Shown: piece after piece, positions 34,790 to 62,290 of the stretch
Position numbering within the stretch: the first letter of the stretch is position 1
Layout of the letters: every line of letters starts with the position of its first letter
Assembly (NCBI GenBank): GCA_020722565.1
Contig: DYKO01000014.1
Location: forward strand, 1 to 64,000
DNA from: Rikenella microfusus
Lineage (GTDB): Bacteria; Bacteroidota; Bacteroidia; Bacteroidales; Tenuifilaceae
Length of the DNA stretch: 64,000 nt
Reading direction: 5' to 3'
Translations under genes and position numbers: made by a program
The notes under the pieces: generated by a model
What the model was told of the DNA's origin: nothing
What the model saw: only the letters and a program-made list of their open reading frames with translations
The model's database searches: none

Positions 34790-35833
34790 ATGGAACTTAG
34801 CAAAAGGATTAAAGCATTCACTAAACTTGGTGAAGAGATGTTGGTGGCTATTGGTAGCCCCAACCATTTATTGGGTAATTCAGCCATTGAAGCGTATTAT
34901 CTAAATCCATGGTTTACAAAGGATAATGTATCCAGAGCCATTGAAGCCATTGCTAAGGAATGGTTGAATGAAGAATCGCTTGGAGGCTGGATAGCACAGT
35001 ACCCTTCCAGTTATTTTCCTCCAGAACATCCCATGGATGTTGGGGTGATTATGGCTGGAAATATTCCTCTGGTTGGATTTCATGATTTTTTATGCGTGCT
35101 AATTACGGGCAACCGGATAAGAATTAAGCTATCATCGAGGGATGGAGGGCTTATGAGTGCTATTTCCCAAATGCTTTGTAATATTGAGCCCAGGTTTACA
35201 CCTTTGATTCAGGTGGTTGACGGCACACTAAAGGATTTTGATGCTGTGATTGCCACCGGAAGCGATAGCTCCGCCAAGTACTTTGAATACTATTTTCGTA
35301 ATCATCCGGCTTTGATTAGGGGGCATAGGAATGGAGTGGCGCTGCTTACCGGTGATGAAAGTTCTGCTGAACTGGAGCTGCTCTCCGATGATATTTATAG
35401 CTACTTTGGACTTGGCTGCCGGAATGTGTCGAAGCTGTTGGTACCCAAGGACTATAATTTCAGCTCACTTATCGATGGCATGCAAAAATGGAGGTTTTTA
35501 ATAAATCATCATCGGTATGCCAATAACTATGAGTATGCACGAACCATCAATCTTATTAATCAGACTGTGCACCTCGATACCGGTTTTTCGCTGATTGTCC
35601 CTAATGAGGACATTGATGCGGGTATTGCTACTATTAACTATCAGGAATACTCAAATATACAGGCGGCACTCAGCTATATCGATGCTAATGATGCTAAAAT
35701 TCAGTGCTTGGTAGCGCAGGATGGTATTATTCATCCCCGAAGAGTTAATTTTGGAGAAACTCAGCAACCCAAGTTGAACGATTATGCCGATGGCATTGAT
35801 ACCATTGAATTTTTGGGTAAATTAAACAGATGA
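34790..35833 (+). CDS. Acyl-CoA reductase (LuxC-like)
   Basis: Aldehyde-dehydrogenase-fold protein of 347 residues similar to LuxC/acyl-CoA reductases, which reduce acyl-CoA or acyl-ACP to the aldehyde with NADPH. Visible family blocks are GWIAQYP, VGVIMAGNIPLVGFHDFLCVL, RIKLSSRD, DAVIATGSDSSAKYFEYYF, HRNGVALLTGDES and GLGCRNVSKLLVP, where the Cys is the expected nucleophile (about residue 205). I start at the ATG at 34790; the in-frame TTG at 34766 adds eight unlikely residues. It heads a run of plus-strand genes; 60 bases to the next start. Confidence 0.88.
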   Translation: MELSKRIKAFTKLGEEMLVAIGSPNHLLGNSAIEAYYLNPWFTKDNVSRAIEAIAKEWLNEESLGGWIAQYPSSYFPPEHPMDVGVIMAGNIPLVGFHDFLCVLITGNRIRIKLSSRDGGLMSAISQMLCNIEPRFTPLIQVVDGTLKDFDAVIATGSDSSAKYFEYYFRNHPALIRGHRNGVALLTGDESSAELELLSDDIYSYFGLGCRNVSKLLVPKDYNFSSLIDGMQKWRFLINHHRYANNYEYARTINLINQTVHLDTGFSLIVPNEDIDAGIATINYQEYSNIQAALSYIDANDAKIQCLVAQDGIIHPRRVNFGETQQPKLNDYADGIDTIEFLGKLNR

Positions 35834-48674: not shown

Positions 48675-48696
48675 AATTGTAAAATATGTTACAATT
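48675..48696. promoter_or_regulatory. CRP/FNR-type palindrome upstream of the hcp locus
   Basis: Perfect inverted repeat: arms AATTGTAA and TTACAATT, 6-base spacer AATATG, 22 bases in all. Size and shape fit a CRP/FNR-family site, and regulators of the HcpR group control hcp operons in many anaerobes. It ends about 67 bases before the ATG of the ferredoxin-like gene and overlaps the probable -33 region, so it could act as an activator or repressor site. The regulator itself is not in the window. Confidence 0.65.
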
Positions 48697-48763: not shown

Positions 48764-49594
48764 ATGAAAAGAGACTTCATTAAAATAGATAGGGATAAAT
48801 GCAATGGCTGCGGTTTATGCGTTAGCGGATGCCATGAGGGTGCACTGCAGCTAATCGACGGAAAGGCTGTACTGATAAGTGAACTTATGTGCGATGGGCT
48901 TGACGCTTGCATTGGTGTGTGTTCTGTGGAAGCCATTACCATTGAGCAGCGCGAGGCTGAGCCTTATGATGAGGTGCACACCATTAGTAAAATGGTTGTT
49001 AATGGAAAGAATACTGTTATTGCACATTTGAAACACTTAAAGGATTACAACGAGAAAGAATACTTGCGACAAGGTATTGAGTGGCTGCTGGCTAACCGCG
49101 AAAAGATTTCGTTTAGTGTTGATGAGGTGTTGCAGGATTTAAATAGCCATACCAAAGAGGCCTGTGGCTGCGGAACCGATGAACCCAAAGTAAAATCTCA
49201 AACCATGCATCATCCTGGAGGGGGTTGTCCGGGTTCGGCTGAACGCAGCTTTGCGAATAACGATGGCAGAAACAAATGGATGGTTTCAGACAAATCGGAA
49301 CTTACACACTGGCTGGTTCAGCTACGTCTTATTAATCCTTACTCAGGACACTTCATAGGGTCAAACCTTTTACTGGCAGTCAACTGTGTGGCTTTCAGCC
49401 ATGGAAATTTTCACAGTAGCTACCTGAAGGGAAAAACATTGGCCATGGCATACCTCAAACTCGACAGTAACAAGGAGGTTTATGTCGATAAGATTACCGC
49501 ACTAATTGATGATTCCCAGGTTGATACCATTACTGTAATTAAAATGGAGTTTCCCTGTTGTGGGGGGCTTCAGATTGCACGCATGTCTCGATAA
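48764..49594 (+). CDS. 4Fe-4S ferredoxin-like protein of the hcp locus, ended early by an in-frame TAA
   Basis: An iron-sulfur protein usually found beside hcp in Bacteroidota and Clostridia. It has an N-terminal two-cluster ferredoxin (CNGCGLCVSGC near residue 16; CDGLDACIGVC near 44), GGGCPGS in the middle and a C-terminal domain with ...CCGGLQIAR. Translation stops after 276 residues at TAA 49592-49594. The same frame then continues through HANRKVPIKDITVGIQGDIL to TAA at 49670-49672, matching the normal family C-terminus, so the original gene was about 302 residues. Other family-conserved residues are also changed: where relatives have GCPKLD this has AYLKLD, and WPVQL is WLVQL. It looks like a decaying gene. 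Confidence 0.75.
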   Translation: MKRDFIKIDRDKCNGCGLCVSGCHEGALQLIDGKAVLISELMCDGLDACIGVCSVEAITIEQREAEPYDEVHTISKMVVNGKNTVIAHLKHLKDYNEKEYLRQGIEWLLANREKISFSVDEVLQDLNSHTKEACGCGTDEPKVKSQTMHHPGGGCPGSAERSFANNDGRNKWMVSDKSELTHWLVQLRLINPYSGHFIGSNLLLAVNCVAFSHGNFHSSYLKGKTLAMAYLKLDSNKEVYVDKITALIDDSQVDTITVIKMEFPCCGGLQIARMSR

Positions 49595-49734
49595 CATGCA
49601 AACCGCAAGGTTCCCATAAAGGATATTACTGTTGGCATTCAGGGCGATATTCTGGAGACAAATTGGGTGTAAATAACAATAATTCAATAATTAATTCTTT
49701 AATCTATTTACTTTAATTTTTAATTTTTTAAACT

Positions 49735-51381
49735 ATGAGCATGTTTTGCTACCAATGTCAGGAAGCAGCTAAAGGAACCGGCTGCACCATTAAGGGTGTA
49801 TGTGGTAAGAGCGATGATCTTGCGAACATGATGGACCTATTGCTTTTTGTAACCAAGGGCGTATGCGTTTATAGTAGCGCCTTGCGCGAGCAAAAGGGAT
49901 ACGAAAACCCAATCGTAAACAAGTTTGTTTTCGATAGCCTTTTTGCCACCATCACCAATGCCAATTTCGATAAGGCTTCTATTTCGCGTCGGGTTTCCAA
50001 AGCTTTGGAGGTTCGTAATATGCTGCGTGATGAGGCAAAAAGATAGGGTGTGGCTGTGAATACCGATTTCGAGGGTTGCATCTGGGAGGGTAAGCCTGAG
50101 GAGTTCGAGCAAAAGGCTGCAACTGTAGGGATTCTGAACGAAACCAATGAGGACATCCGCTCACTGAAAGAACTTATCACCTACGGCATTAAGGGTATGG
50201 CCGCATATGCCGAGCATGCCTACAATCTTGGCTTTGAGGATACTTCAATCTATGCATTTATGCAGAAAACCTTGGCCGACATTACCCGTAATCATAGTGT
50301 TGACCAGTTGGTTGCGCTTACCCTTGAAACTGGTAAGTATGGCGTACAAACCATGGCGCTGCTCGATAGGGCAAATACATCGAATTATGGTAATCCCGAA
50401 ATAACCAAGGTAAATCTGGGGGGGCGAAATAATCCAGGTATTCTCATCAGCGGCCACGATTTGAAGGATATGGAGGAGCTATTGGCTCAAACCGAGGGGA
50501 CCGGTGTTGATGTTTACACCCATAGCGAGATGCTTCCGGCTAACTACTACCCTGCATTCAAGAGGTACAAGCATTTTGTTGGCAACTATGGTAGCAGCTG
50601 GTGGCACCAGCGTGAGGATTTCGAAAACTTCAACGGGCCTATCCTCTTCACTACAAATTGCATAGTGCCACCACTTGTCAATGCAAGCTATAGGGATAGG
50701 ATTTACACCACCGGATCATCAGGTCTTGAGGGTGCAAAGCACATTCCCGATCGTGAAAATGGTAAACCCAAGGATTTCAGTGAGATAATTGAGCATGCCA
50801 AACGTTGCAAGCCCCCCGTTGAAATTGAAAAGGGTGAGATTGTAGGTGGCTTTGCCCATGAGCAGGTTTTTGCTCTTGCCGATAAGGTTGTGGATGCTGT
50901 AAAGTCTGGATCTATTCGTAAGTTCATAGTAATGGCCGGTTGCGATGGAAGAATGAAGGATCGTAACTATTACACCGAATTTGCAGAAAAACTTCCCAAG
51001 GACACCGTTATCCTAACCGCCGGTTGTGCCAAGTATCGTTACAACAAGTTGCCCTTAGGCGACATTGGCGGAATTCCCCGCGTACTAGATGCCGGACAGT
51101 GTAACGATTCATACTCGCTGGCTGTTATTGCTCTCAAGTTAAAGGAAGTGTTCCAACTAAATGATATTAACGAACTTCCCATTGCCTATAACATTGCATG
51201 GTATGAGCAGAAAGCAGTTATCGTTCTTCTTGCATTGCTTTACCTGGGAGTTAAGAATATACATTTAGGCCCCACTATTCCAGCATTCCTTTCGCCTAAC
51301 GTGGCCAAGGTGCTTGTTGTGAACTTTGGAATTGGTGGTATTACCAATGTTGATGAAGATATCAAGTTAATGGTTGGCTAA
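49735..51381 (+). pseudogene. hcp: Hydroxylamine reductase (hybrid cluster protein) with one in-frame TAG
   Basis: Hybrid-cluster protein, which reduces hydroxylamine (and is linked to nitric oxide handling) in anaerobes. The frame opens at the ATG at 49735 with the N-terminal cluster ligands C5-x2-C8-x8-C17-x5-C23, reads 103 codons to DEAKR, meets TAG (50044-50046), and resumes in the same frame at [10 protein letters not shown] to the stop at 51381 (548 codons plus stop, normal size). All hybrid-cluster ligand motifs are intact after the stop: [46 protein letters not shown] and YEQKAV. So this is a recently interrupted, otherwise complete gene, unless the TAG is read through or is a sequencing error. 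Confidence 0.85.
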
Positions 51382-51390
51382 TGTTAAATC

Positions 51391-51422
51391 ACACTGGCAG
51401 GGTTACAAAACCCTGCCAGTGT
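51391..51422 (+). terminator. Strong hairpin after hcp
   Basis: Perfect 14-bp stem ACACTGGCAGGGTT / AACCCTGCCAGTGT with a 4-base loop, followed by TTAAAATTT. It lies between hcp and the cupin gene, so the cupin gene may have reduced or separate transcription. Confidence 0.85.
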
Positions 51423-51437
51423 TTAAAATTTATAGCT

Positions 51438-51764
51438 ATGACTAACGAGTTCCCATAAGGAGTAAAATTCAATTTTGTTAACGAAGTTGATTGCAACACT
51501 GGCGGTATTGTAAGTGAAAATGTGCTTAAGCGAAGCACCGGTAATATTTCACTATTTGCTTTTGATAAGGGAGAGGGTTTAAGTGAGCACACCACCCCTT
51601 TTGATGCTGTGGTACAAATAATTGAGGGTAATGCTCGCATATTCATCGACGGGAACCCTCACGATTTAAGGGCAGGAGAATCCATTATTATGCCCGCTAA
51701 TGTTCCTCATCCCCTTCAGGCAATAGAGCGCTTTAAAATGGTTTTAACCATGATACGCAAGTGA
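51438..51764 (+). pseudogene. Cupin protein of the hcp locus, with an in-frame TAA at codon 7
   Basis: From the ATG at 51438 the frame reads MTNEFP, then TAA (51456-51458), then GVKFNFVNEVDCNTGGI... in the same frame to the stop at 51764. The part after the stop is a normal small cupin: GEGLSEHTTPFDAVVQIIEG and GESIIMPANVPHPLQA contain the expected metal ligands and beta roll. A short N-terminal segment FPxGVKFN precedes the cupin in relatives I recall, so the TAA most likely replaces a Gln or Lys codon. Translation could start again at an internal GTG (51522, 80 residues), which would lose the N-terminal strands. This is the third gene in a row with one stop codon. Confidence 0.7.
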
Positions 51765-52101
51765 TAAGAATCGGTATTGTTTTTATCTACTGGTAAATTT
51801 TATTAATTAATTTTGAAGATAAGCCTTTGATATCTATGAGTGAATTTGTTTTTCCTAAATAAATTGAACTTTTATACCGATTGTTAAGTAAACATATTTT
51901 TTTTGCAAATGCAGATTTATATTTAGTTTCAGTAGACATCGATTTACAATTAAAATCATATTAAGTAACTAATGCCAATCCTGCAGAGCGTTAGTTTTCT
52001 GCCTCGCATATTATGTACAGGTTACCTTTTGTCAAAATTGTCATGGCAAGTGAATCAGCCTTAGAAGTTTATTATTTAAGTGCAATTTTAAATTAAACCC
52101 A

Positions 52102-52173
52102 ATGGCTACTATGGTAATGGTTTACCTCGGTGTTGCCATTCTTATGTTTGGTATGCCTTTAGTTTTCTTTTAA
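52102..52173 (+). CDS. Possible small membrane protein (23 residues, in-frame continuation after TAA)
   Basis: ATG at 52102 opens MATMVMVYLGVAILMFGMPLVFF, a single hydrophobic helix, then TAA at 52171-52173. The frame continues PKFDRENYWA to TGA at 52204-52206, a plausible cytoplasmic tail. If the two parts were once joined this would be a fourth interrupted frame. It may be a chance frame; I do not recognise a family. Confidence 0.3.
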   Translation: MATMVMVYLGVAILMFGMPLVFF

Positions 52174-52314
52174 CCTAAGTTCGACCGGGAAAATTATTGG
52201 GCTTGACATCAAAAGGGGGTGTGGGATTAAATACCTTGTTTATTTATTTGGTTGTAAATTAACTTCTTAGGCTTTTACCAGAATCCCAAAATATTCTTTC
52301 ACGGCGGTTCACAT

Positions 52315-52322
52315 TACTTTTG
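52315..52322 (+). promoter_or_regulatory. Possible -7 element (TACTTTTG) before the second cupin gene
   Basis: TACTTTTG matches TAnnTTTG about 100 bases before the ATG at 52421. No clear TTG at the -33 distance. Confidence 0.35.
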
Positions 52323-52420
52323 CAGTTTACTGATTCCTCGGCCGCGTTATAAAATACTTGCCTTTTGCATCTCTGGTTTTATAGTAAATTGCTGTAGAAT
52401 GATAATTAAAATCGATTAAA

Positions 52421-52732
52421 ATGAACAAACCGGTTACACTAATGGATGCCCCAAGGGTTTCATTCAACTTCAACGGTTGTATAATGTTCACAGGACAAAA
52501 GGTTGAAATAGTCCATCTCTCCCTTATGCCAGGAGAGGAAGTTCCTTTACATAGCAATCCCTTCGATGTGGTATTTTATCAACTACAGGGCAATCTAGAA
52601 CTAAAAGTTGATGACGATACGCTAATACTTATGCCCGATACTGCTATTTTGGCTTTGGCAAATCAAAGTCGCGGATTGGCAAATAAAACGGAGGCTTTAG
52701 CCAGAGTACTGGTTATTAAGATATACAAGTAA
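52421..52732 (+). CDS. Small cupin-domain protein
   Basis: A 103-residue single-domain cupin: SLMPGEEVPLHSNPFDVVFYQLQGNLELKVDDDTLILMPDTAILA. It has one His (PLHSNPFD) where the metal site usually has several, so metal binding is uncertain. It follows the hcp locus and is intact, unlike the cupin at 51438, to which it is only distantly similar. Function unknown; perhaps co-regulated with the hcp genes by position only. Confidence 0.7.
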   Translation: MNKPVTLMDAPRVSFNFNGCIMFTGQKVEIVHLSLMPGEEVPLHSNPFDVVFYQLQGNLELKVDDDTLILMPDTAILALANQSRGLANKTEALARVLVIKIYK

Positions 52733-52893
52733 AAAATGTTTGTTAAGTCTTTAAATCCCTCAATAAATCCATAATTGAAAGCACCCAAGGTCTGCTCAAA
52801 AACATAAAACTTAACATGCGTAAAATCCTCATTTTTTAGCGTGGATTTTAGTTTATTGGCTATATTCGAACCCTGAATTTGAAGTTGATAATC

Positions 52894-54147
52894 ATGCAAA
52901 TACTCATTCTTAACATCAAAAAACTGGTTCAGGTAGAGGACAAACCTTTGGTTTGGCGCGCAGGTAAAGATATGGCTAAGGTGAATTCAATCGATAATGC
53001 CTTTCTGCTAATCGATAACGGATTGATAGCCAGTTTTGGGCCTATGGCAAATGTTCCCGAATTTTCATCGCTTTCGGGAGATGTTCTTATTTACAATGCT
53101 CATGGCCGCATAGTTTTCCCTTCGTTTTGCGATTCACATACCCATTTGGTATATGCAGGAAGTAGAGAAATTGAGTATATCAATAAAATTAAGGGGCTCT
53201 CCTACGAGGAAATTGCAAAGCGTGGGGGTGGAATATTGAATTCTGCCCGTTTTCTGGCACAAACATCTGAGGATGAACTTTATGAGCAATCACTTACACG
53301 GGTTAACGAAATAATATCAAAAGGCACAGGTGCCGTTGAGATTAAAAGTGGTTATGGTCTGACCATTGAAAGTGAGCTGAAAATGCTTCGGGTTATTCGA
53401 AGGCTTAAGGAAACCACTCCTCTCACAATAAAGGCAACATTTCTTGGTGCCCATGCCGTTCCTGCAGAGTATAAAGGTCGTCAGTCCGATTATGTTGACC
53501 TTATCATTAACGAAATGATTCCCATGGTGGCCGCTGAGGACCTGGCCGATTACATAGATGTGTTCTGCGATAGGGGATTTTTTACCGTTGAGGATACCGA
53601 GCGCATACTAATGGCTGGTATAAAGTACGGCCTTAGGCCGAAGCTGCATGCCAACGAGCTTGACTATTCTGGCGGCATTCAGGTTGGGGTAAAGTACAAT
53701 GCCCTTTCGGTTGACCATTTGGAATACACCGGCGATGCCGAAATAGAAGCGCTGCTGGGCTCCGAAACCATGCCAACTTTACTTCCGAGCGCCGCCTTCT
53801 TTCTGGGCATGATTGACCCACCCGTGCGTAGAATGATTGAGGCAGGTCTGCCCATTGCTTTAGCTTCCGACTTTAATCCCGGCTCATCACCATCGGGCGA
53901 TATGAAATTTATTATGTCGCTCGGATGCATTAAGCTACGAATGCTTCCCGAAGAGGTTATCAATGCAGCTACCATTAACGGTGCTTATGCCATGGGGCTT
54001 TCCGAAACTCACGGAAGCATCTGTAAGGGTAAGGTAGCCAATGTATTTATAACTAAGCCCATACCTAGCATTGAATATTTACCCTATGCCTATACCTCCG
54101 ATTTAATTGAAACTGTTATCCTAAATGGTAAAATCATTAAGAATTAG
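52894..54147 (+). CDS. hutI: Imidazolonepropionase
   Basis: Third enzyme of histidine degradation: opens imidazolone propionate to N-formimino-L-glutamate. The 417-residue amidohydrolase has the metal motifs DSHTHLVYAGSREIEY, GAHAVP, HANELDYSGG, DHLEYTGD and ASDFNPGSSPSGD, all standard for HutI. I start at ATG 52894; a TTG at 52879 adds KLII. It lies near ftcD, which takes its product; hutH and hutU are not in the window. Confidence 0.96.
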   Translation: MQILILNIKKLVQVEDKPLVWRAGKDMAKVNSIDNAFLLIDNGLIASFGPMANVPEFSSLSGDVLIYNAHGRIVFPSFCDSHTHLVYAGSREIEYINKIKGLSYEEIAKRGGGILNSARFLAQTSEDELYEQSLTRVNEIISKGTGAVEIKSGYGLTIESELKMLRVIRRLKETTPLTIKATFLGAHAVPAEYKGRQSDYVDLIINEMIPMVAAEDLADYIDVFCDRGFFTVEDTERILMAGIKYGLRPKLHANELDYSGGIQVGVKYNALSVDHLEYTGDAEIEALLGSETMPTLLPSAAFFLGMIDPPVRRMIEAGLPIALASDFNPGSSPSGDMKFIMSLGCIKLRMLPEEVINAATINGAYAMGLSETHGSICKGKVANVFITKPIPSIEYLPYAYTSDLIETVILNGKIIKN

Positions 54148-54261: not shown

Positions 54262-54981
54262 ATGAAAAAGGCATTAGTTTTTACTGTTATCTTAGGTATA
54301 ACTTCTTGTGCAGAGCTCAAGTTGCCTGCAAATTTTTCACTTCCTCAAGTTCCAACCAGTAAACCTTTATCTACCACTGAGGTAATTCAGGGCCTTAAGG
54401 AGGCTCTAACAATTGGTGCTAAAAACTCAACGTCACTTGCCTCACAGGTTGATGGGTTTTACAAAATCCCAAAGATTTTCATTCCATTTCCACCCGAGGC
54501 CGAAAAGGTTCGTAAAACCTTGGTCGATGCCGGATTTTCTAAGCAGGTTGATGAGTTTACCCTTACCTTGAATCGAGCCGCTGAAGAGGCGACCAAAAGG
54601 GCGCTGCCCATTTTTAAAGATGCCATCGTCAAAATGACCATATCCGATGCCATGGGTATTCTGAAAGGTCCCGATAATGCAGCCACAGAGTATTTCCGAA
54701 AAACAACATCAGAACAGCTATTTCTGGCCTTCAAACCGGTTGCTCATGATGCGATAAAGCAGGTAAAGCTAACCTCTTACTGGGAACCCATTGCATCAAC
54801 CTATAACCGTTTAGCTATACTAACTGGCGGCAGAGCCGTGAATCCTAACCTCGAGGAATATGTAACCCAAAAAGCAATCGATGGGCTATTTATTCTAATA
54901 GAGCAGGAGGAGCATAAAATTAGAAAGGACCCCGCAGCCAGAATAACCGATATACTTAAAAGAGTATTTGGAAGTAATTAA
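54262..54981 (+). CDS. DUF4197 lipoprotein
   Basis: A 239-residue lipoprotein with a lipobox (LGITSCAELKLP, Cys about residue 16). The helical DUF4197 domain follows: GLKEALTIGAKNSTSLASQVDGFYK, IFIPFPPEAEKVRKTL, VDEFTLTLNRAAEEAT and RITDILKRVFG at the end. The family is widespread in Proteobacteria and Bacteroidota with unknown function. It sits between hutI and ftcD on the same strand without an obvious link. Confidence 0.88.
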   Translation: MKKALVFTVILGITSCAELKLPANFSLPQVPTSKPLSTTEVIQGLKEALTIGAKNSTSLASQVDGFYKIPKIFIPFPPEAEKVRKTLVDAGFSKQVDEFTLTLNRAAEEATKRALPIFKDAIVKMTISDAMGILKGPDNAATEYFRKTTSEQLFLAFKPVAHDAIKQVKLTSYWEPIASTYNRLAILTGGRAVNPNLEEYVTQKAIDGLFILIEQEEHKIRKDPAARITDILKRVFGSN

Positions 54982-55116: not shown

Positions 55117-56811
55117 ATGTCACAAAAAAAACTGATAGAGTGCGTGCCCAATTTTTCCGAAGGGCGCGATATGGCTATCATTAAGCAAATTACCGATGAA
55201 ATTGAAGCCGTTGAAGGGGTTAAGTTGATTGATGTTGATCCGGGAAAGGCAACCAATCGCACTGTGGTAACCTTTGTAGGTACTCCCGAAGAGGTTGTTG
55301 ATGCTGCATTTCGGGCAACTCATAAGGCTATGGAGCTAATTGATATGAGTAAGCATCATGGAGCACATCCGCGCTTTGGAGCCACCGATGTTTGCCCGCT
55401 GGTTCCTGTAGCCAATATCACTATGGACGAGGTGGTTGAGTATGCCCGTAAGTTGGCCAAACGCATTGGCGAAGAGTTGGGGATTCCCGTTTACTGTTAC
55501 GAGTTTGCCGCTTTTGAAGAAAAACGGCGAAATTTGGCCAACTGCAGAGCTGGTGAGTATGAAGGCCTGCCTAAAAAGTTACAGGACCTGGCCTGGCGGC
55601 CCGATTTTGGACCCACAACATTTTTACCCAAAACTGGAGCCATTGCAGTGGGGGCCAGAAACTTTCTTGTGGCTTACAATGTCAATTTAAATACCACATC
55701 TACTCGAAGGGCAAATGCTGTCGCTTTCGATATTAGGGAAAAGGGGCGCCCAAAAAGAATTGGCAACCCCGTAACGGGTAAAATTGCCACTGATGAAAAT
55801 GGCAACGAGATATGGATACCCGGTTCACTAAAAGCCTGTAAGGCTATTGGTTGGTTTATCGATGAGTATGGTATAGCTCAGGTTTCCATAAATCTGACCG
55901 ATATCACTGTAACTCCCATTCATGTTGCCTTTGAGGAAACTTGCAAAAAAGCAGTAGAACGAGGGTTACGCGTTACCGGATCCGAGATAGTTGGTGTAGT
56001 TCCCCTCAGTGCTATGCTTGAGGCAGGTAAGTACTTCCTTCGTAAACAGCAGCGTTCATTGGGTATTCCTGATAGAGAAATTATTAAGATTGCCGTAAAA
56101 TCCATGGGAATCGACGAGTTGTACCCCTTTGATCCCGATAAAAAGATTATTGAGTACATTCTTGAGGATAAGAGCACCAAAAAGTTAATTGATAAAACCC
56201 TAGAGGGTTTCACTCAGGAAACAGCATCGGAGTCGCCTGCGCCTGGTGGTGGTTCAATTTCAGCAGCAATGGGAGCATTTGGTTCAGCTCTTGCCACCAT
56301 GGTGGCAAACCTCTCATCGCATAAGCCGGGTTGGGACGACCGCTGGGAGGAGTTCTCTAACTGGGCTGAAAAGGGCAAGTACTACATGGAACAGCTCATT
56401 AAAATGGTGGACGAGGATACCGCAGCTTTCAACCGTATTATGAGTGCTTTTGGTTTACCCAAGGGAACTGATGAGGAGAAAGCAACCCGCACAAAGGCTA
56501 TTCAGGACGCCACGTTGTATGCCATTGAGGTACCATTTAGGGTAATGAACCTTTGCTTTGAGAGCATGGAGGTTATACGGGCAATGGCTGAACATGGAAA
56601 CCCCAATTCGGTATCCGATGCTGGAGTGGGTGTCCTGGCTGCCCGCTCAGCCGTTATGGGAGCTTACCTTAATGTTAAAATAAACGCTTCGGGACTTAAG
56701 GATAAGGCTAAAGCCGATGAGTTTATCAGCAAGGGTGCTGAAATTGTGAAAAAGACCCAGTTGCTTGAAGTTGAAATATTAGAAATTGTTGAAAGCAAGA
56801 TAAAAGCCTAA
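55117..56811 (+). CDS. ftcD: Bifunctional glutamate formimidoyltransferase / formimidoyltetrahydrofolate cyclodeaminase
   Basis: Last step of this histidine route: moves the formimino group from formiminoglutamate to tetrahydrofolate, then releases ammonia to give methenyl-THF. The N-terminal formiminotransferase (about 1-300) starts KLIECVPNFSEGRD and has HHGAHPRFGATDVCP. The C-terminal cyclodeaminase (about 365-564) has ESPAPGGGSISAAMGAFGSALATMV. 564 residues is the expected bifunctional size. Together with hutI this shows use of histidine as nitrogen, energy and one-carbon source; a terminator follows. Confidence 0.96.
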   Translation: MSQKKLIECVPNFSEGRDMAIIKQITDEIEAVEGVKLIDVDPGKATNRTVVTFVGTPEEVVDAAFRATHKAMELIDMSKHHGAHPRFGATDVCPLVPVANITMDEVVEYARKLAKRIGEELGIPVYCYEFAAFEEKRRNLANCRAGEYEGLPKKLQDLAWRPDFGPTTFLPKTGAIAVGARNFLVAYNVNLNTTSTRRANAVAFDIREKGRPKRIGNPVTGKIATDENGNEIWIPGSLKACKAIGWFIDEYGIAQVSINLTDITVTPIHVAFEETCKKAVERGLRVTGSEIVGVVPLSAMLEAGKYFLRKQQRSLGIPDREIIKIAVKSMGIDELYPFDPDKKIIEYILEDKSTKKLIDKTLEGFTQETASESPAPGGGSISAAMGAFGSALATMVANLSSHKPGWDDRWEEFSNWAEKGKYYMEQLIKMVDEDTAAFNRIMSAFGLPKGTDEEKATRTKAIQDATLYAIEVPFRVMNLCFESMEVIRAMAEHGNPNSVSDAGVGVLAARSAVMGAYLNVKINASGLKDKAKADEFISKGAEIVKKTQLLEVEILEIVESKIKA

Positions 56812-56875: not shown

Positions 56876-58411
56876 TTAGAATCTGAAACCCAAAGTGAGC
56901 AGTATTTTGTTATCATTTATTTTGTTTGTAACCTCTGGCAGATTGCTATCGTTGTAGAACAAGTATTTAATTTCCTGCAGGGTTTTCAGATAGGCCAAAT
57001 CTATCGACATGTTGTCCGTACGGTAGCCAATTCCTCCGGAAAGTTGTTGAATGTTCGATTTATTGTTCAAAAATTCGGACTTGTAGGGTGACGGGTAGTA
57101 GGCGTATCCAGCACGAAGGGCCAAATCACCCATTTTATATTCCCCGCCAAACTTTAGGTTGGTTACGCTTTTAAAAGCATTGTCCATTTGGTTGTTTAAA
57201 TCCCAGAAGGTATCGCCATCGGCACCGCGGCGGAAACGCATACTGGAGTAGTAAACATGTTCAATCTCAATGCTTATCAATCCATATTGCTGCAAAACTA
57301 TAGCTAGGCTGCCAATCAGTTTCATGGGCGTTTCAAAATGGTAATCGTATCGTCCAAGGGGACTATTACTTTGGAAATAAACTGGTGTAGCGGAGGTATC
57401 AAAATCACTAAGTAGTGATGAAGAAAATGCATCGTCTAAGCTATAGAAAGTGGGAGTATGAAAAGCTAAGCCAATACGCAAAGAGGGTATTGGCGTATAA
57501 ATTCCACCAATTTTAAGATTGTAGCCCGTTCCCTTTGTTTCTAGGTATTGCTTGTATTCCAAACTGTAGAATCTATCTCCATTGGCTCTTGCTGGATTAC
57601 TTGGTTTCGCCTCTTCGGCATACATTGAGTTGAATGTGTAGTTAAAATCGGTAATACCCAACGATGCACCCAGGTAAAGTTTGTTGGAAATATTCACACC
57701 TAAGGCTGAGGAAAATTCGCCTGCACCTCCTTCGGTTGATATGATGTTTTTATAGTTTACTGAATCCTCAAGAAAAATGGCGGGTTCGTAGCTCCCTGTC
57801 CCGGAATCGTAATTGTACAATAGCCATGTATTCCATGCCATTATTGGTTCCCATGCTCCAGCGCCTAGAGTGTTGAATGGATCGTAGCTACTGGTTGGTT
57901 CCAGCTGTAAAGGGCTATATTTGCCGTTGCTAATAGTTGAAAAGTAATCCATTATGGAGTATTTATCGTAGCTACCAATTGTGATGCTGTTTGAATGGTA
58001 ATCGTTTTTACGGGTATATCCAAAGGCAATATTGTATGCAACAATGCCTTTTTCTTCCTTTTTAAAAGGTTTAAATGACATTACAAATCCCAAATTATCG
58101 AGGTAGAGTTTATTCTTGTTGTCGGTGGCCGTGAGCCCTATAAATGTTGAGTTCACTTTTTGGGTTTTAAATGATGGCGAAAAGGTGAATTCACTCGATT
58201 TATAAACTCCAAGCCCGGCGGGATTGATGCTAATTGATGAGAAATCGGCTCCCAATGAGCCAAATGCTCCGCCCATCGATACGAAACGTGCTGTTCCGTG
58301 ATTAATACTTTGGCTAAACCTTAGTCCATCGGCAAGCGTTTGTCCGTTAGCAGAACTAAGTAGAAAAAAAATACCTGTGGCAAGTGTTATACTTTTTATC
58401 TTGATAGTCAT
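56876..58411 (-). CDS. OmpP1/FadL-family outer-membrane transport protein
   Basis: A 511-residue exported barrel (signal peptide to about SANGQ). Family features: an N-terminal mature segment TLADGLRFSQSINHGTARFVSMGGAFGSLGADFSSISINPAGLGVYKSSEF, which is the Bacteroidota FadL hallmark (GSARxxxMGGAfxalGdD.sai..NPAGL), and a C-terminal strand ending in GFRF. FadL proteins take up hydrophobic compounds such as long-chain fatty acids; no ligand can be named here. Confidence 0.9.
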   Translation of the reverse strand: MTIKIKSITLATGIFFLLSSANGQTLADGLRFSQSINHGTARFVSMGGAFGSLGADFSSISINPAGLGVYKSSEFTFSPSFKTQKVNSTFIGLTATDNKNKLYLDNLGFVMSFKPFKKEEKGIVAYNIAFGYTRKNDYHSNSITIGSYDKYSIMDYFSTISNGKYSPLQLEPTSSYDPFNTLGAGAWEPIMAWNTWLLYNYDSGTGSYEPAIFLEDSVNYKNIISTEGGAGEFSSALGVNISNKLYLGASLGITDFNYTFNSMYAEEAKPSNPARANGDRFYSLEYKQYLETKGTGYNLKIGGIYTPIPSLRIGLAFHTPTFYSLDDAFSSSLLSDFDTSATPVYFQSNSPLGRYDYHFETPMKLIGSLAIVLQQYGLISIEIEHVYYSSMRFRRGADGDTFWDLNNQMDNAFKSVTNLKFGGEYKMGDLALRAGYAYYPSPYKSEFLNNKSNIQQLSGGIGYRTDNMSIDLAYLKTLQEIKYLFYNDSNLPEVTNKINDNKILLTLGFRF

Positions 58412-58477: not shown

Positions 58478-59908
58478 TTACCTTTTTCTGGAGCCAGTTG
58501 AACTTGAACTGCTGTTGCTTGATGAACGCGAACCATTTGAAAAACTTGAGGTGCTGCTGGATGATGCCCTGCTGTTGGAGTTGCCTGAACCATATGAATG
58601 GTTTGAGCCACCCGTTTCTCTTGAGCGATAGGTGTTACTTGAAGGACTGCCAGACGAAGAAGGTGTGCTAACCCTATTGGGTCGGTTGTAGGTTGGAGCT
58701 GTTGAACGAGTATGCGGAGTAGGGGAAGGATTACGACTTATTGTAGAGTTCGTATTTCCCGGGCGTTCAACCCTGCGCGAATAGTTATAATCGCTATTAC
58801 CCGATGTTCTAGGCCATTCATAGGTAGTCCCCGAAGTTCTACGAATGGGTTCTGAAATTCCAATTTCACGTGTTGGACGATTTGTTCGCCCTGTCTCATT
58901 GAATGTACTTTCGTTTGTTGTTCTGGTTCCAGAAGTGGTTCTTTCTCTTCGAATTAATACCTGTTCATTGTTATTGCTGGAGCCATCCCCTCTGCGTGTT
59001 TCATAACTTGGAGCAACCCGTGTTTGAGTACTCCGTGTGGTTACAACAGGATTGTTTTCGGAAGTAGCAACATCTGTTGTTCGGGTTCTTCGGGTTTTTA
59101 CTACTTGACCATCTTTAGAAATGGCTGTTTCTCTGGAGCCAATATGCTGATCGGTATTATAGCCTCCGGTTGTTGATCTCCGGCCGTAGTAGTAGTTACT
59201 ATTGGGAGTGTACCTATTCCAGTAATAGGTGGCATCGTTCCAGCCCCACCAGTATGGGGAATTTGCATAAAAATAGGGATTGTAGTACCATGAACTATAG
59301 TACATGGAATTATAGTACCATGGATTCCAATAGTAACCTACATACCATGGGTTATATCCCCCGTCAAATCCATATCCAAATCCAAAATAGAATCTGCTAC
59401 GGGGCCACCCAAACGAATTGTATATATACCAGGGCTCAACCCAAACATTGCTCCCCATCACAACAATCCTGTAGTACGATGGGTCGTATGCCTGTGCATA
59501 TCGGTAGTCATCTGAATAGTATATGCTCCAATCCTCAATTCCGTATCTGGGATCCTCGAAACCCCTCAAGCGCCTTTCATACGATTCCTGGTAGCTATCG
59601 GACAAAATTCTACGGTAGGGATTTGTTTCCTGAGACTTATATATTACTGTATCTACATTGCTACTGTCATTTAAAGCCTTAAGTGCTTCAGTATACTTCT
59701 CATCAAGTTTACTGTACTGCTGATTCTTAGTAGATGGGGTAGGGCTTTTTTCTACCACCTGGTTTTCAGCTGCTGTTGCTTTAGCGTTGTTCCCCGCATA
59801 AATCTCATCATCCCATGAGGATGTTTTACTCGTTTGCAGGCCAGTAGAGCAGGAAACTGCCAGTAGTCCTGTTAAGTAGAGTGCCGCTAATTTCATTTTG
59901 GTTTTCAT
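58478..59908 (-). CDS. Tyr/Trp-rich and Ser/Arg/Thr-rich lipoprotein of unknown function
   Basis: A 476-residue lipoprotein (lipobox LLAVSC, Cys about residue 20). Residues about 170-240 are very rich in Tyr, Trp, Asn and Pro (YWNPWYYNSMYYSSWYY and similar), with almost no charges. The C-terminal half is low-complexity Ser/Thr/Arg/Asn, ending in a long Ser run and GSRKR. I choose the ATG at 59908, which has a strong GGAGGT ribosome-binding site 5-6 bases upstream, unusual in this window; an in-frame TTG lies 12 bases further up. Similar Tyr-rich proteins occur in many Bacteroidota, often named by low-complexity matches only. Perhaps surface-exposed or matrix-forming. Confidence 0.7.
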   Translation of the reverse strand: MKTKMKLAALYLTGLLAVSCSTGLQTSKTSSWDDEIYAGNNAKATAAENQVVEKSPTPSTKNQQYSKLDEKYTEALKALNDSSNVDTVIYKSQETNPYRRILSDSYQESYERRLRGFEDPRYGIEDWSIYYSDDYRYAQAYDPSYYRIVVMGSNVWVEPWYIYNSFGWPRSRFYFGFGYGFDGGYNPWYVGYYWNPWYYNSMYYSSWYYNPYFYANSPYWWGWNDATYYWNRYTPNSNYYYGRRSTTGGYNTDQHIGSRETAISKDGQVVKTRRTRTTDVATSENNPVVTTRSTQTRVAPSYETRRGDGSSNNNEQVLIRRERTTSGTRTTNESTFNETGRTNRPTREIGISEPIRRTSGTTYEWPRTSGNSDYNYSRRVERPGNTNSTISRNPSPTPHTRSTAPTYNRPNRVSTPSSSGSPSSNTYRSRETGGSNHSYGSGNSNSRASSSSTSSFSNGSRSSSNSSSSSTGSRKR

Positions 59909-60009: not shown

Positions 60010-61485
60010 ATGGCAAAGGAAATTACTAGTAGGAACGAGAATTATTCGCAGTGGTATAACGACATTGTGGTTAAAGCAGGGTTGGCCGATTATTCTGCCG
60101 TTCGTGGCAGTATGGTTATTAAGCCCTATGGCTTTGCCATTTGGGAAAAAATGCGTGATCAACTTGATCATATGTTTAAGGAAACTGGTCACCAAAATGC
60201 TTATTTTCCATTATTTATACCAAAATCATTTTTTAGCCGTGAAGCAGCTCATGTTGAGGGTTTTGCAAAGGAATGCGCTGTAGTTACCCATTATAGGCTT
60301 AAAAATGACCCTAACGGCAAGGGTATTGTGGTTGATGAAGATGCAAAACTGGAGGAGGAACTGGTGGTGAGGCCTACCTCCGAAACCATAATTTGGAACA
60401 CCTATAAATCATGGATTCAATCGTATCGTGATTTGCCCATCCTAATTAACCAGTGGGCTAATGTGGTGCGCTGGGAAATGCGTACCCGTCTTTTCCTTCG
60501 AACTGCCGAATTTCTATGGCAGGAGGGGCACACAGCTCATGCCACCAAGGAGGAAGCTGTTGAGGAGGCTGAACGAATGATTAATGTTTACTCCACCTTT
60601 GCCCGTGAATGGATGGCTATGCCAGTTATAATCGGGAAAAAATCGGAGTCAGAGCGTTTCGCCGGTGCGGTTGATACCTATTCCATTGAAGCTTTGATGC
60701 AGGATGGGAAGGCGTTGCAGGCTGGCACATCTCACTTTTTAGGACAAAATTTTGCCAAGGCATTTGATGTTAAGTTTCTAAATAGGGAAAGCCAACTTGA
60801 ATATGTTTGGGCAACCTCATGGGGAGTTTCAACCCGTTTAATGGGTGCTCTGGTTATGACCCATTCCGACGATAACGGTTTGGTGCTCCCTCCAAAACTT
60901 GCTCCTACTCAGGTTGTTTTTGTCCCCGTTTATAAGAGCGAGGAGGAACTTGCGGCTGTTAGCGAGGTTGTTGCAAAACTCCGGGTTGAACTTCATTCAA
61001 AAGGGATTACCACTCATTACGATGATCGCGATAACTATAAGCCTGGTTTTAAGTTTGCCGAGTACGAATTGAAGGGTGTTCCTGTTCGGGTAGCCATTGG
61101 CCCAAGGGATATCGAAAAGGGTACCGTCGAGGTCGCCCGTCGCGATACGCTCCAAAAACAATTTGTTTCTCAAAATCAACTGGCAGAAACTGTTGTTTCG
61201 TTGCTCGATAATATACAGGCCAACCTCTACAACCGCGCTCTTGAGTTTCGAGAACGCAATACTACCCGCGTGGAAACCTACGATGAGTTTAAAAAGGTTA
61301 TTGCCGAAAATGGAGGTTTTGTTTTAGCCCATTGGGATGGTACTCCCGAAACAGAGGCCCTCATAAAAGAGGATACTAAAGCTACCATTCGTTGTATTCC
61401 TCTTGATATGCCCGAGGAAGACGGTAAGTGTATAGTTACAGGCAAACCATCAAAAAAACGGGCAATTTTTGCATTAGCTTACTAA
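60010..61485 (+). CDS. proS: Prolyl-tRNA synthetase (archaeal/eukaryotic type)
   Basis: Class II synthetase charging tRNA-Pro. The 491-residue protein is of the short ProS2 type without the bacterial INS editing domain. Motif 2 includes [26 protein letters not shown]; motif 3 region [29 protein letters not shown]; the anticodon-binding domain has [24 protein letters not shown]; the C-terminal zinc-like tail ends [20 protein letters not shown]. This type is standard in Bacteroidota. A terminator follows. Confidence 0.97.
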
Positions 61486-61594: not shown

Positions 61595-62290
61595 ATGGAT
61601 GAACCAAATACTCAGGAAAAAATTCAAAATCTACTTAGAGAAAAGGCGGTTATTAAGCAGAAAATATATGATAATACCCTTGAGGTTTTCAACATGATTA
61701 AGGATGTTCTCAGGGACATTGAAGAGGATTACAATAATTCATTAAAAGGTGTTGATAAACGCGTTCGGCTAGAGTATAACGATAGGGGAAAGTATGAAGC
61801 AGAGATTAGGGTTGCCGGCGATTTGCTAATATTTAGCATGCATACCAACGTTTTTGAGTTCGACCGCGATCATAGCATCTGGAAGCTATCGTACGTCCGC
61901 GATGAGGTGCTTAACTCATACTGTGGTATAATTAACATCTACAACTTTTTAGCTGATTCATTCCGGTATAACCGTATGGAAGACCTTGGCTACCTGATTG
62001 GACGTATTTTTGTGAACCGGGAATATAACTACTTTGTTGAAGGCAAACGCCAAATGGGATTCCTTTACAATAATTTCGGACAGGCTAAAATTGATAAACC
62101 TGCCCTGAGAAGAATCATCGAAACGGCTATTACGTATGCCCTCGAATTCGACCTTTTAGTTCCACCCTATGACGTTGTAAAAATTGCTTCAGTTATACAG
62201 CTAAATACCAAAATTGAGAATGCCAAATTGCAAACCGGTAAGCGTTTGGGCTTCCGGTTTAACTCCGATGACGTTTTAGAAGAAAAGTAA
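61595..62290 (+). CDS. Conserved hypothetical protein
   Basis: A 231-residue cytoplasmic protein with no signal peptide or membrane helix. It starts with a charged helix (NTQEKIQNLLREKAVIKQKIYDNTLEVFNMI) then an alpha/beta part: RLEYNDRGKYEAEIRVAGDLLIFSMHTNVFEFD, YCGIINIYNFLADSFRYNRMEDLGYLIGRIFVN. I have seen similar proteins only as Bacteroidales hypotheticals. No catalytic motif. It lies alone with its own promoter, 19 bases before the M49-like lipoprotein gene, so the two may be co-expressed. Confidence 0.65.
   Translation: MDEPNTQEKIQNLLREKAVIKQKIYDNTLEVFNMIKDVLRDIEEDYNNSLKGVDKRVRLEYNDRGKYEAEIRVAGDLLIFSMHTNVFEFDRDHSIWKLSYVRDEVLNSYCGIINIYNFLADSFRYNRMEDLGYLIGRIFVNREYNYFVEGKRQMGFLYNNFGQAKIDKPALRRIIETAITYALEFDLLVPPYDVVKIASVIQLNTKIENAKLQTGKRLGFRFNSDDVLEEK

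Follow-up and report, generated by a model that had tools for sequence, protein, structure and literature searches.

The 64,000-nucleotide stretch of Rikenella microfusus DNA analysed here (the window; positions 1 to 64,000 of contig DYKO01000014.1, assembly GCA_020722565.1) contains an operon of a ferredoxin-like gene, hcp (encoding the hybrid cluster protein) and a small cupin gene, each interrupted by a single in-frame stop codon. Sequence comparison with relatives indicates that these genes very probably belong to a gene cluster for nitrite ammonification and nitrosative stress that is being lost by ordinary pseudogenisation. Recent loss of the operon had been one candidate in an earlier note on this DNA, and it is strongly supported by an excess of changes at otherwise invariant sites, a damaged HcpR-type box, the scar of a ccsA gene, and the lack of any nrfA match in the genome. 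While the loss itself stood, its extent had to be widened, as the affected locus appears to be the whole hcp-nrf cluster.

All three stops, first noticed from the sequence alone, were confirmed in position and frame. The frdX-type ferredoxin-like pseudogene (48764-49672, + strand) carries TAA at 49592-49594, has lost conserved residues and lacks one codon; Fer4-type families matched its residues 5-59, and the gene adjoins hcp, as expected of a frdX-type gene. The hcp gene (49735-51381, + strand) is interrupted at codon 104 by TAG (50044-50046). Read through this codon it scored 745.7 bits against TIGR01703 (cut-off 360.8) over profile positions 1-521 of 522, which places it by score in the hybrid cluster protein family (TIGR01703, Prismane PF03063); with its single reading frame broken by the TAG, the hcp of the window is a predicted pseudogene of that family. 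The cupin pseudogene (51438-51764, + strand) carries TAA at codon 7 (51456-51458), and it too has lost conserved residues. Pfam supported the family assignments of all three genes, and no frameshift was found in any of them. In the ferredoxin, the losses include the GEC-P loop, and stretches such as CDGLGACIGECPEGAI and ACPKLD are kept in the genus relatives and altered in the window. The genome gave one hcp match only, with no second copy, and four ferredoxin-domain matches elsewhere that were short and weak. One weak ferredoxin-domain match had been listed with two TAA codons, and this proved to be a normal gene end made of two consecutive stops.

The rate of amino-acid change at the locus was assessed by counting changes in the window at columns identical in the other sequences, pairwise non-synonymous to synonymous rate ratios (dN/dS) being of little use with silent sites saturated (those of G002 as well). 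The window was compared with four genus relatives (G001, G002, G004 and G005) and with L003 and L005, and each sister species was compared in turn with the other five, window excluded. Excluded from the counts were G006 (a near copy of G001, whose contig is that of L002), L004 (ferredoxin incomplete) and G003 (hcp incomplete). In the ferredoxin, 22 of 196 invariant columns were changed in the window versus 4 of 200 in G002 (one-sided Fisher p = 1.4e-4); the corresponding counts were 11/406 versus 3/409 for hcp (p = 0.027) and, with the stop included, 9/68 versus 0/68 for the cupin (p = 0.0015). Three open downstream genes on the + strand served as pooled controls, these being the neighbours having both outgroups: a Pfam amidohydrolase gene that we take to be hutI (imidazolonepropionase; 52879-54147), a DUF4197 gene (54262-54981) and the formiminotransferase-cyclodeaminase gene (FTCD; 55117-56811). 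With 9/266 versus 12/278 columns changed in hutI (one-sided p = 0.78), 4/95 versus 2/97 in the DUF4197 gene and 7/407 versus 11/418 in FTCD, the control genes show no excess over G002 on this measure. The interaction between lineage and locus was significant in a two-sided test both against G002 (p = 2.9e-5) and against G001, G002 and G005 pooled (p = 4.3e-5). Further neighbours, for which fewer relatives were available, gave 47/341 in the window and 75/416 in G002 for the gene at 56876, 28/208 and 89/297 for that at 58478, and 23/405 and 23/428 for that at 60010; the gene at 61595 had too few relatives. Taken together, the counts suggest pseudogenes under relaxed selection, with the signal weakest for hcp and in the comparison with G004.

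The ferredoxin gene of G004 (L129, G004:C4:40000-59999) is unusual in its own right. Here ACG replaces the start codon ATG of the others, arginine takes the place of a cluster cysteine, and changes affect 7 of the 203 invariant columns. The cause may be early decay of this gene, independent of that in the window, or else errors in the G004 assembly.

The stop codons themselves are not shared with relatives. Among 80 public loci taken, no stop was found in the aligned parts of 80 hcp, 49 ferredoxin and 21 cupin matches covering the sites, and hcp matches in 26 of 40 related genomes likewise contained none, while the window's own copy contained one. All three genes are stop-free in the genus relatives G001, G002, G004, G005 and G006, with the reservation noted for the G004 ferredoxin. 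In G003, the nearest relative by DNA identity at the locus (79.7% over 1078 bases, other genus members reaching 74-77% over longer stretches), the last 228 hcp codons are open up to the contig end and the cupin is open with AAG (Lys) at the stop site; the cupin stop is therefore younger than the split from G003. Compared separately, G003 has as many changes as the window over the hcp end (3/184 each, G002 0/184) and fewer in the cupin (4/68, window 9/68, G002 0/68).

These alignments also bear on how the stops arose. It had been proposed that all three could derive from a C-to-T change in a glutamine codon; a deaminase or DNA damage would be examples of a cause. At the hcp site the eight aligned close relatives have AAA, CAG or CAA, with CAG or CAA in G002, L003, L004 and L005, such that a glutamine origin is possible for this stop. 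Glutamine is also the commonest residue at the ferredoxin site across the wider set (14 of the 49 loci covering it), but the aligned close relatives, the whole genus sample included, have GAA, GAG or GAT (Glu or Asp) in eight of eight cases. The cupin site is AAA or AAG (Lys) in nine of nine close relatives and glutamine in none of the 21 loci covering it. A glutamine-codon origin for the full set is thus almost certainly wrong. The simplest origins would be GAA to TAA in the ferredoxin and AAA to TAA in the cupin, with AAA, CAG and CAA all candidates in hcp. Under the rough guess that 30-60 missense changes represent the neutral excess, 1.6-3.2 nonsense changes would be expected and three or more would arise with a probability of 0.21-0.61, so the number of stops is unremarkable.

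An open, family-like hcp frame beyond the stop is also what programmed or tolerated readthrough yielding full-length ferredoxin, Hcp and cupin would predict, and in-frame stops in bacterial genes are, in the available part of one report, described as widespread and in many cases perhaps not a mark of pseudogenes (PMC7918605). However, the lack of stops in the public loci and related genomes runs against this explanation, as does the loss of conserved residues in the ferredoxin and cupin. A search for suppressor tRNAs, suggested by the earlier note, was also negative: none of 40 tRNAs typed by anticodon reads UAA, UAG or UGA, in a list that is incomplete (150 of 243 candidates scored, tRNA-Ile missing). 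With neither a conserved stop nor a stop-reading tRNA found, readthrough gains no support as a candidate. It is highly unlikely because the stops are non-conserved and of two kinds and are accompanied by the loss of conserved residues. The narrower proposal, under which this strain would read past all three non-conserved stops of a single transcript and still make the full products of the Hcp operon at a low level, has an equally slight probability. The view that the genetic code is not reassigned was upheld, and the decay has no bearing on it.

Translation might instead restart at GTG 50050, one codon past the hcp stop, and yield a functional Hcp of 443 residues that lacks the N-terminal region. 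Both the GTG and an open frame carrying Prismane profile positions 91-513 are present, and changes are no denser past the stop than ahead of it (10/338 versus 1/68). The N-terminal four-cysteine motif of Hcp binds an iron-sulfur cluster. Such a product would lack this motif, whose cysteines are kept in the aligned relatives; moreover, hcp is more changed than in G002, and the ferredoxin and cupin are broken too. We consider a functional restart to have a very small chance of being correct.

Evidence that the loss extends beyond the three genes came from the DNA downstream. In G002 a PepSY gene comes immediately after the cupin and is succeeded by nrfH, nrfA, resB and ccsA, and then by a second cupin. 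In G001 and G004 two genes lie between the cupin and the same PepSY-nrfH-nrfA-resB-ccsA run, which in G004 is again followed by a second cupin. Pfam identified the G002 genes as PepSY_TM, Cytochrom_NNT, Cytochrom_C552, ResB, Cytochrom_C_asm (PF01578, corresponding to ccsA) and Cupin_2. The distance between nrfA and hcp is 2.8-4.6 kb in G001, G002 and G004. The nrfA matches fell under the curated cut-off of TIGR03152 in all five genomes with a match, and the naming as nrfA is supported by PF02335 (585.5 bits). Between the cupin and the second cupin, the window has 656 bases in which no gene was recognised. Frameshift-tolerant alignment within this interval revealed a remnant of a ccsA/ResC-type cytochrome c assembly gene (Cytochrom_C_asm) on the + strand, extending over 51872-52372 with the G004 query, 51969-52372 with G001 and 51779-52369 with G002. 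Depending on the query it contains 3-8 stops and 4-5 frameshifts. The alignments are collinear and scored 136-142, compared with maxima of 51-68 for shuffled sequences (60 shuffles per query), while alignment at the DNA level is weak. This remnant is, as judged from the homology, the scar of a lost nrfHA-resB-ccsA block. No remnant of the PepSY gene, nrfH, nrfA, resB or the two extra G001 genes rose above shuffles (20 each) in 51765-52420. The window's genome, rated 99.7% complete, gave no nrfA match, and neither a Cytochrom_C_asm match nor an intact ccsA was found in it.

The second cupin of the window (52421-52732, + strand), which stands after ccsA in G002 and G004, retains an open frame. 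It has 17 unique non-synonymous versus 2 synonymous changes, and 8 of 33 invariant columns are changed versus 3 of 36 in G002, suggesting that this gene may be decaying too.

A separate observation concerns the resB-like gene of the relatives. It forms one 405-residue frame in G002 and G004. In G001 two frames, of 195 and 186 residues, stand in its place, and the gene, located there between nrfA and ccsA (L123, G001:C1:95000-114999), may be interrupted.

The regulatory region upstream of the operon is altered as well. Motif comparison identified an HcpR-type operator at 48678-48693 (no strand assigned) that has lost one consensus base, reading TGTAAAATATGTTACA compared with the consensus GTAACnnnnGTTAC. 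The consensus is exact in all five genus relatives whose upstream DNA was examined (G001, G002, G004, G005 and G006). The form GTAACATATGTTAC stands 94-116 bases ahead of the ferredoxin start in these five and in L003 and L005; the window version, GTAAAATATGTTAC, lies 85 bases ahead and has one mismatch, so that the window has no exact HcpR2 operator. More widely, of the 46 rows having sufficient upstream DNA, 20 carried exact GTAACnnnnGTTAC, the five genus relatives, L003 and L005 among them (L002 and G006 being the same contig). Within the available part of Rodionov et al. (PMC1274295), GTAACnnnnGTTAC is given as the HcpR2 motif. A Crp/Fnr-type regulator without stops (L162) remains in the genome, one of seven and the sole one compared with solved structures. 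Its structure matches include entries 5v30 and 6np6, which we take to be P. gingivalis HcpR; the identification of L162 as HcpR is a lead only.

The altered operator and the independent ccsA scar help to decide whether the stops are sequencing or assembly errors, another candidate of the earlier note. The genome is a draft in 32 contigs, and random errors would likewise be mostly non-synonymous. However, errors of this kind would have to spare all three genes any frameshift and to produce dozens of further locus-specific changes without raising the counts in controls 1-5 kb downstream. As a three-base error leaves the rest of the decay unexplained, a local artefact is very unlikely.

We therefore return to the loss of the gene cluster by pseudogenisation. 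Comparison with the sister species suggests an ancestor in which an HcpR-type operator preceded same-direction genes for a frdX-like ferredoxin, Hcp and the cupin, sometimes with two further genes, and in which the run continued through the PepSY gene, nrfH, nrfA, resB, ccsA and the second cupin. In the lineage of the window, PepSY-nrfHA-resB would have been deleted, leaving the frameshifted ccsA remnant. Selection on the Hcp operon may then have lapsed in a genome that had lost nitrite respiration and retained a flavodiiron-type gene. A stop-free gene with a flavodiiron-type ODP domain is indeed found in the genome, and its product might cover nitric oxide removal. Missense changes would subsequently have accumulated, together with the altered operator base and the three stops, each of these a point mutation of its own. 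The nrf-ccs block was probably lost first, because the ccsA scar is more decayed than the hcp operon; we infer this order of events, its cause and the absence of functional Hcp.

Several observations weigh against this interpretation. hcp has no frameshift and only a modest excess of changes (11/406 versus 3/409, one-sided p = 0.027), suggesting that it was under selection until recently. Inside the window's genome, the three genes are not significantly more changed than hutI (42/670 versus 9/266, p = 0.11), and the excess is visible only relative to the slow change of these genes in sister species. Compared with G004 alone, the window shows no significant rise in the pooled ratio of non-synonymous to synonymous changes (p = 0.24), G004 has a smaller locus excess of its own (13:11 versus 13:34, p = 0.038), and the ferredoxin changes lean towards AT without reaching significance (p = 0.13). 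Furthermore, the ferredoxin, hcp, cupin and second cupin of G005 (L131) are open with no nrf genes between them, and in the G003 contig seen (L132) the cupin and the hcp end are open, with other genes following and no nrf beside hcp. As these genomes keep open genes without an adjoining nrf block, loss of nrf is not sufficient for decay of hcp. Neither genome gave an nrfA or Cytochrom_C_asm match, at a completeness of 77-78%, and the genus may have lost its nrf block repeatedly.

The locus nevertheless offers a well-resolved intermediate, in which an apparent nrf-ccs deletion scar adjoins a point-mutated Hcp operon and open sister copies are available for comparison. It would allow one to ask in what sequence linked nitrite and nitric oxide functions disappear.

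The earlier note had also stated that no other gene in the 64 kb shows such a stop, and this holds as far as tested by a codon-usage scan. The scan detects single stops flanked by coding-like sequence and recovered the ferredoxin and hcp stops only; the cupin stop at codon 7 is invisible to it, and short genes would be missed. A TGA at 35831, added on a rerun with pooled training, was rejected as an ordinary gene end with a start codon immediately after it. The uniqueness does not extend genome-wide. Applied to 20 other stretches, which total 400 kb of 2.84 Mb, the scan returned 14 stops. Twelve were interpreted, from their peptides and the start codons close by, as boundaries between adjacent genes, and two as single-gene interruptions; four more stretches (80 kb of contig C13) in the same scan yielded no listed stops. 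The first interruption is an in-frame TAG near the C-terminus of a gamma-glutamyltransferase gene (L183:17505, G000:C4:57505), whose open frame of 551 residues is exceeded in five of six genus relatives (570-592 residues), with no match in the sixth. The second is an in-frame TAA on the minus strand in an S-adenosylmethionine (SAM) methyltransferase gene (L200:7561, G000:C31:77561); with the part after the stop as query, three of six genus relatives matched, with frames of 258, 258 and 187 residues versus 167 here. Nonsense mutations thus occur elsewhere in the genome at low density, and the trio stands out because all three lie in one operon.

Pseudogenisation of bacterial operons under relaxed selection is a known process. 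The locus resembles it in its scattered nonsense and missense changes, its altered regulatory site and the remnant of a deleted neighbour, and differs from it not in kind; the stage here is intermediate, with hcp mostly conserved. In Bacteroides thetaiotaomicron, another member of the Bacteroidales, Hcp and NrfA are described as complementary nitrosative-stress defences in the accessible part of a preprint (PMC13370916), whereas the window's genome has a broken hcp and no nrfA that could be found. The HcpR-controlled frdX-hcp operon, as set out in the part of PMC1274295 available, is matched by the ferredoxin-like gene beside hcp and by GTAACnnnnGTTAC upstream in the relatives, and the same source includes nrfHA in the HcpR regulons of Desulfuromonas and Geobacter. 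Compared with that system, the operon of the window is broken and its motif has one mismatch, while in this genus hcp is followed by a cupin and also, within G001, G002 and G004, by the nrfHA-ccs genes.

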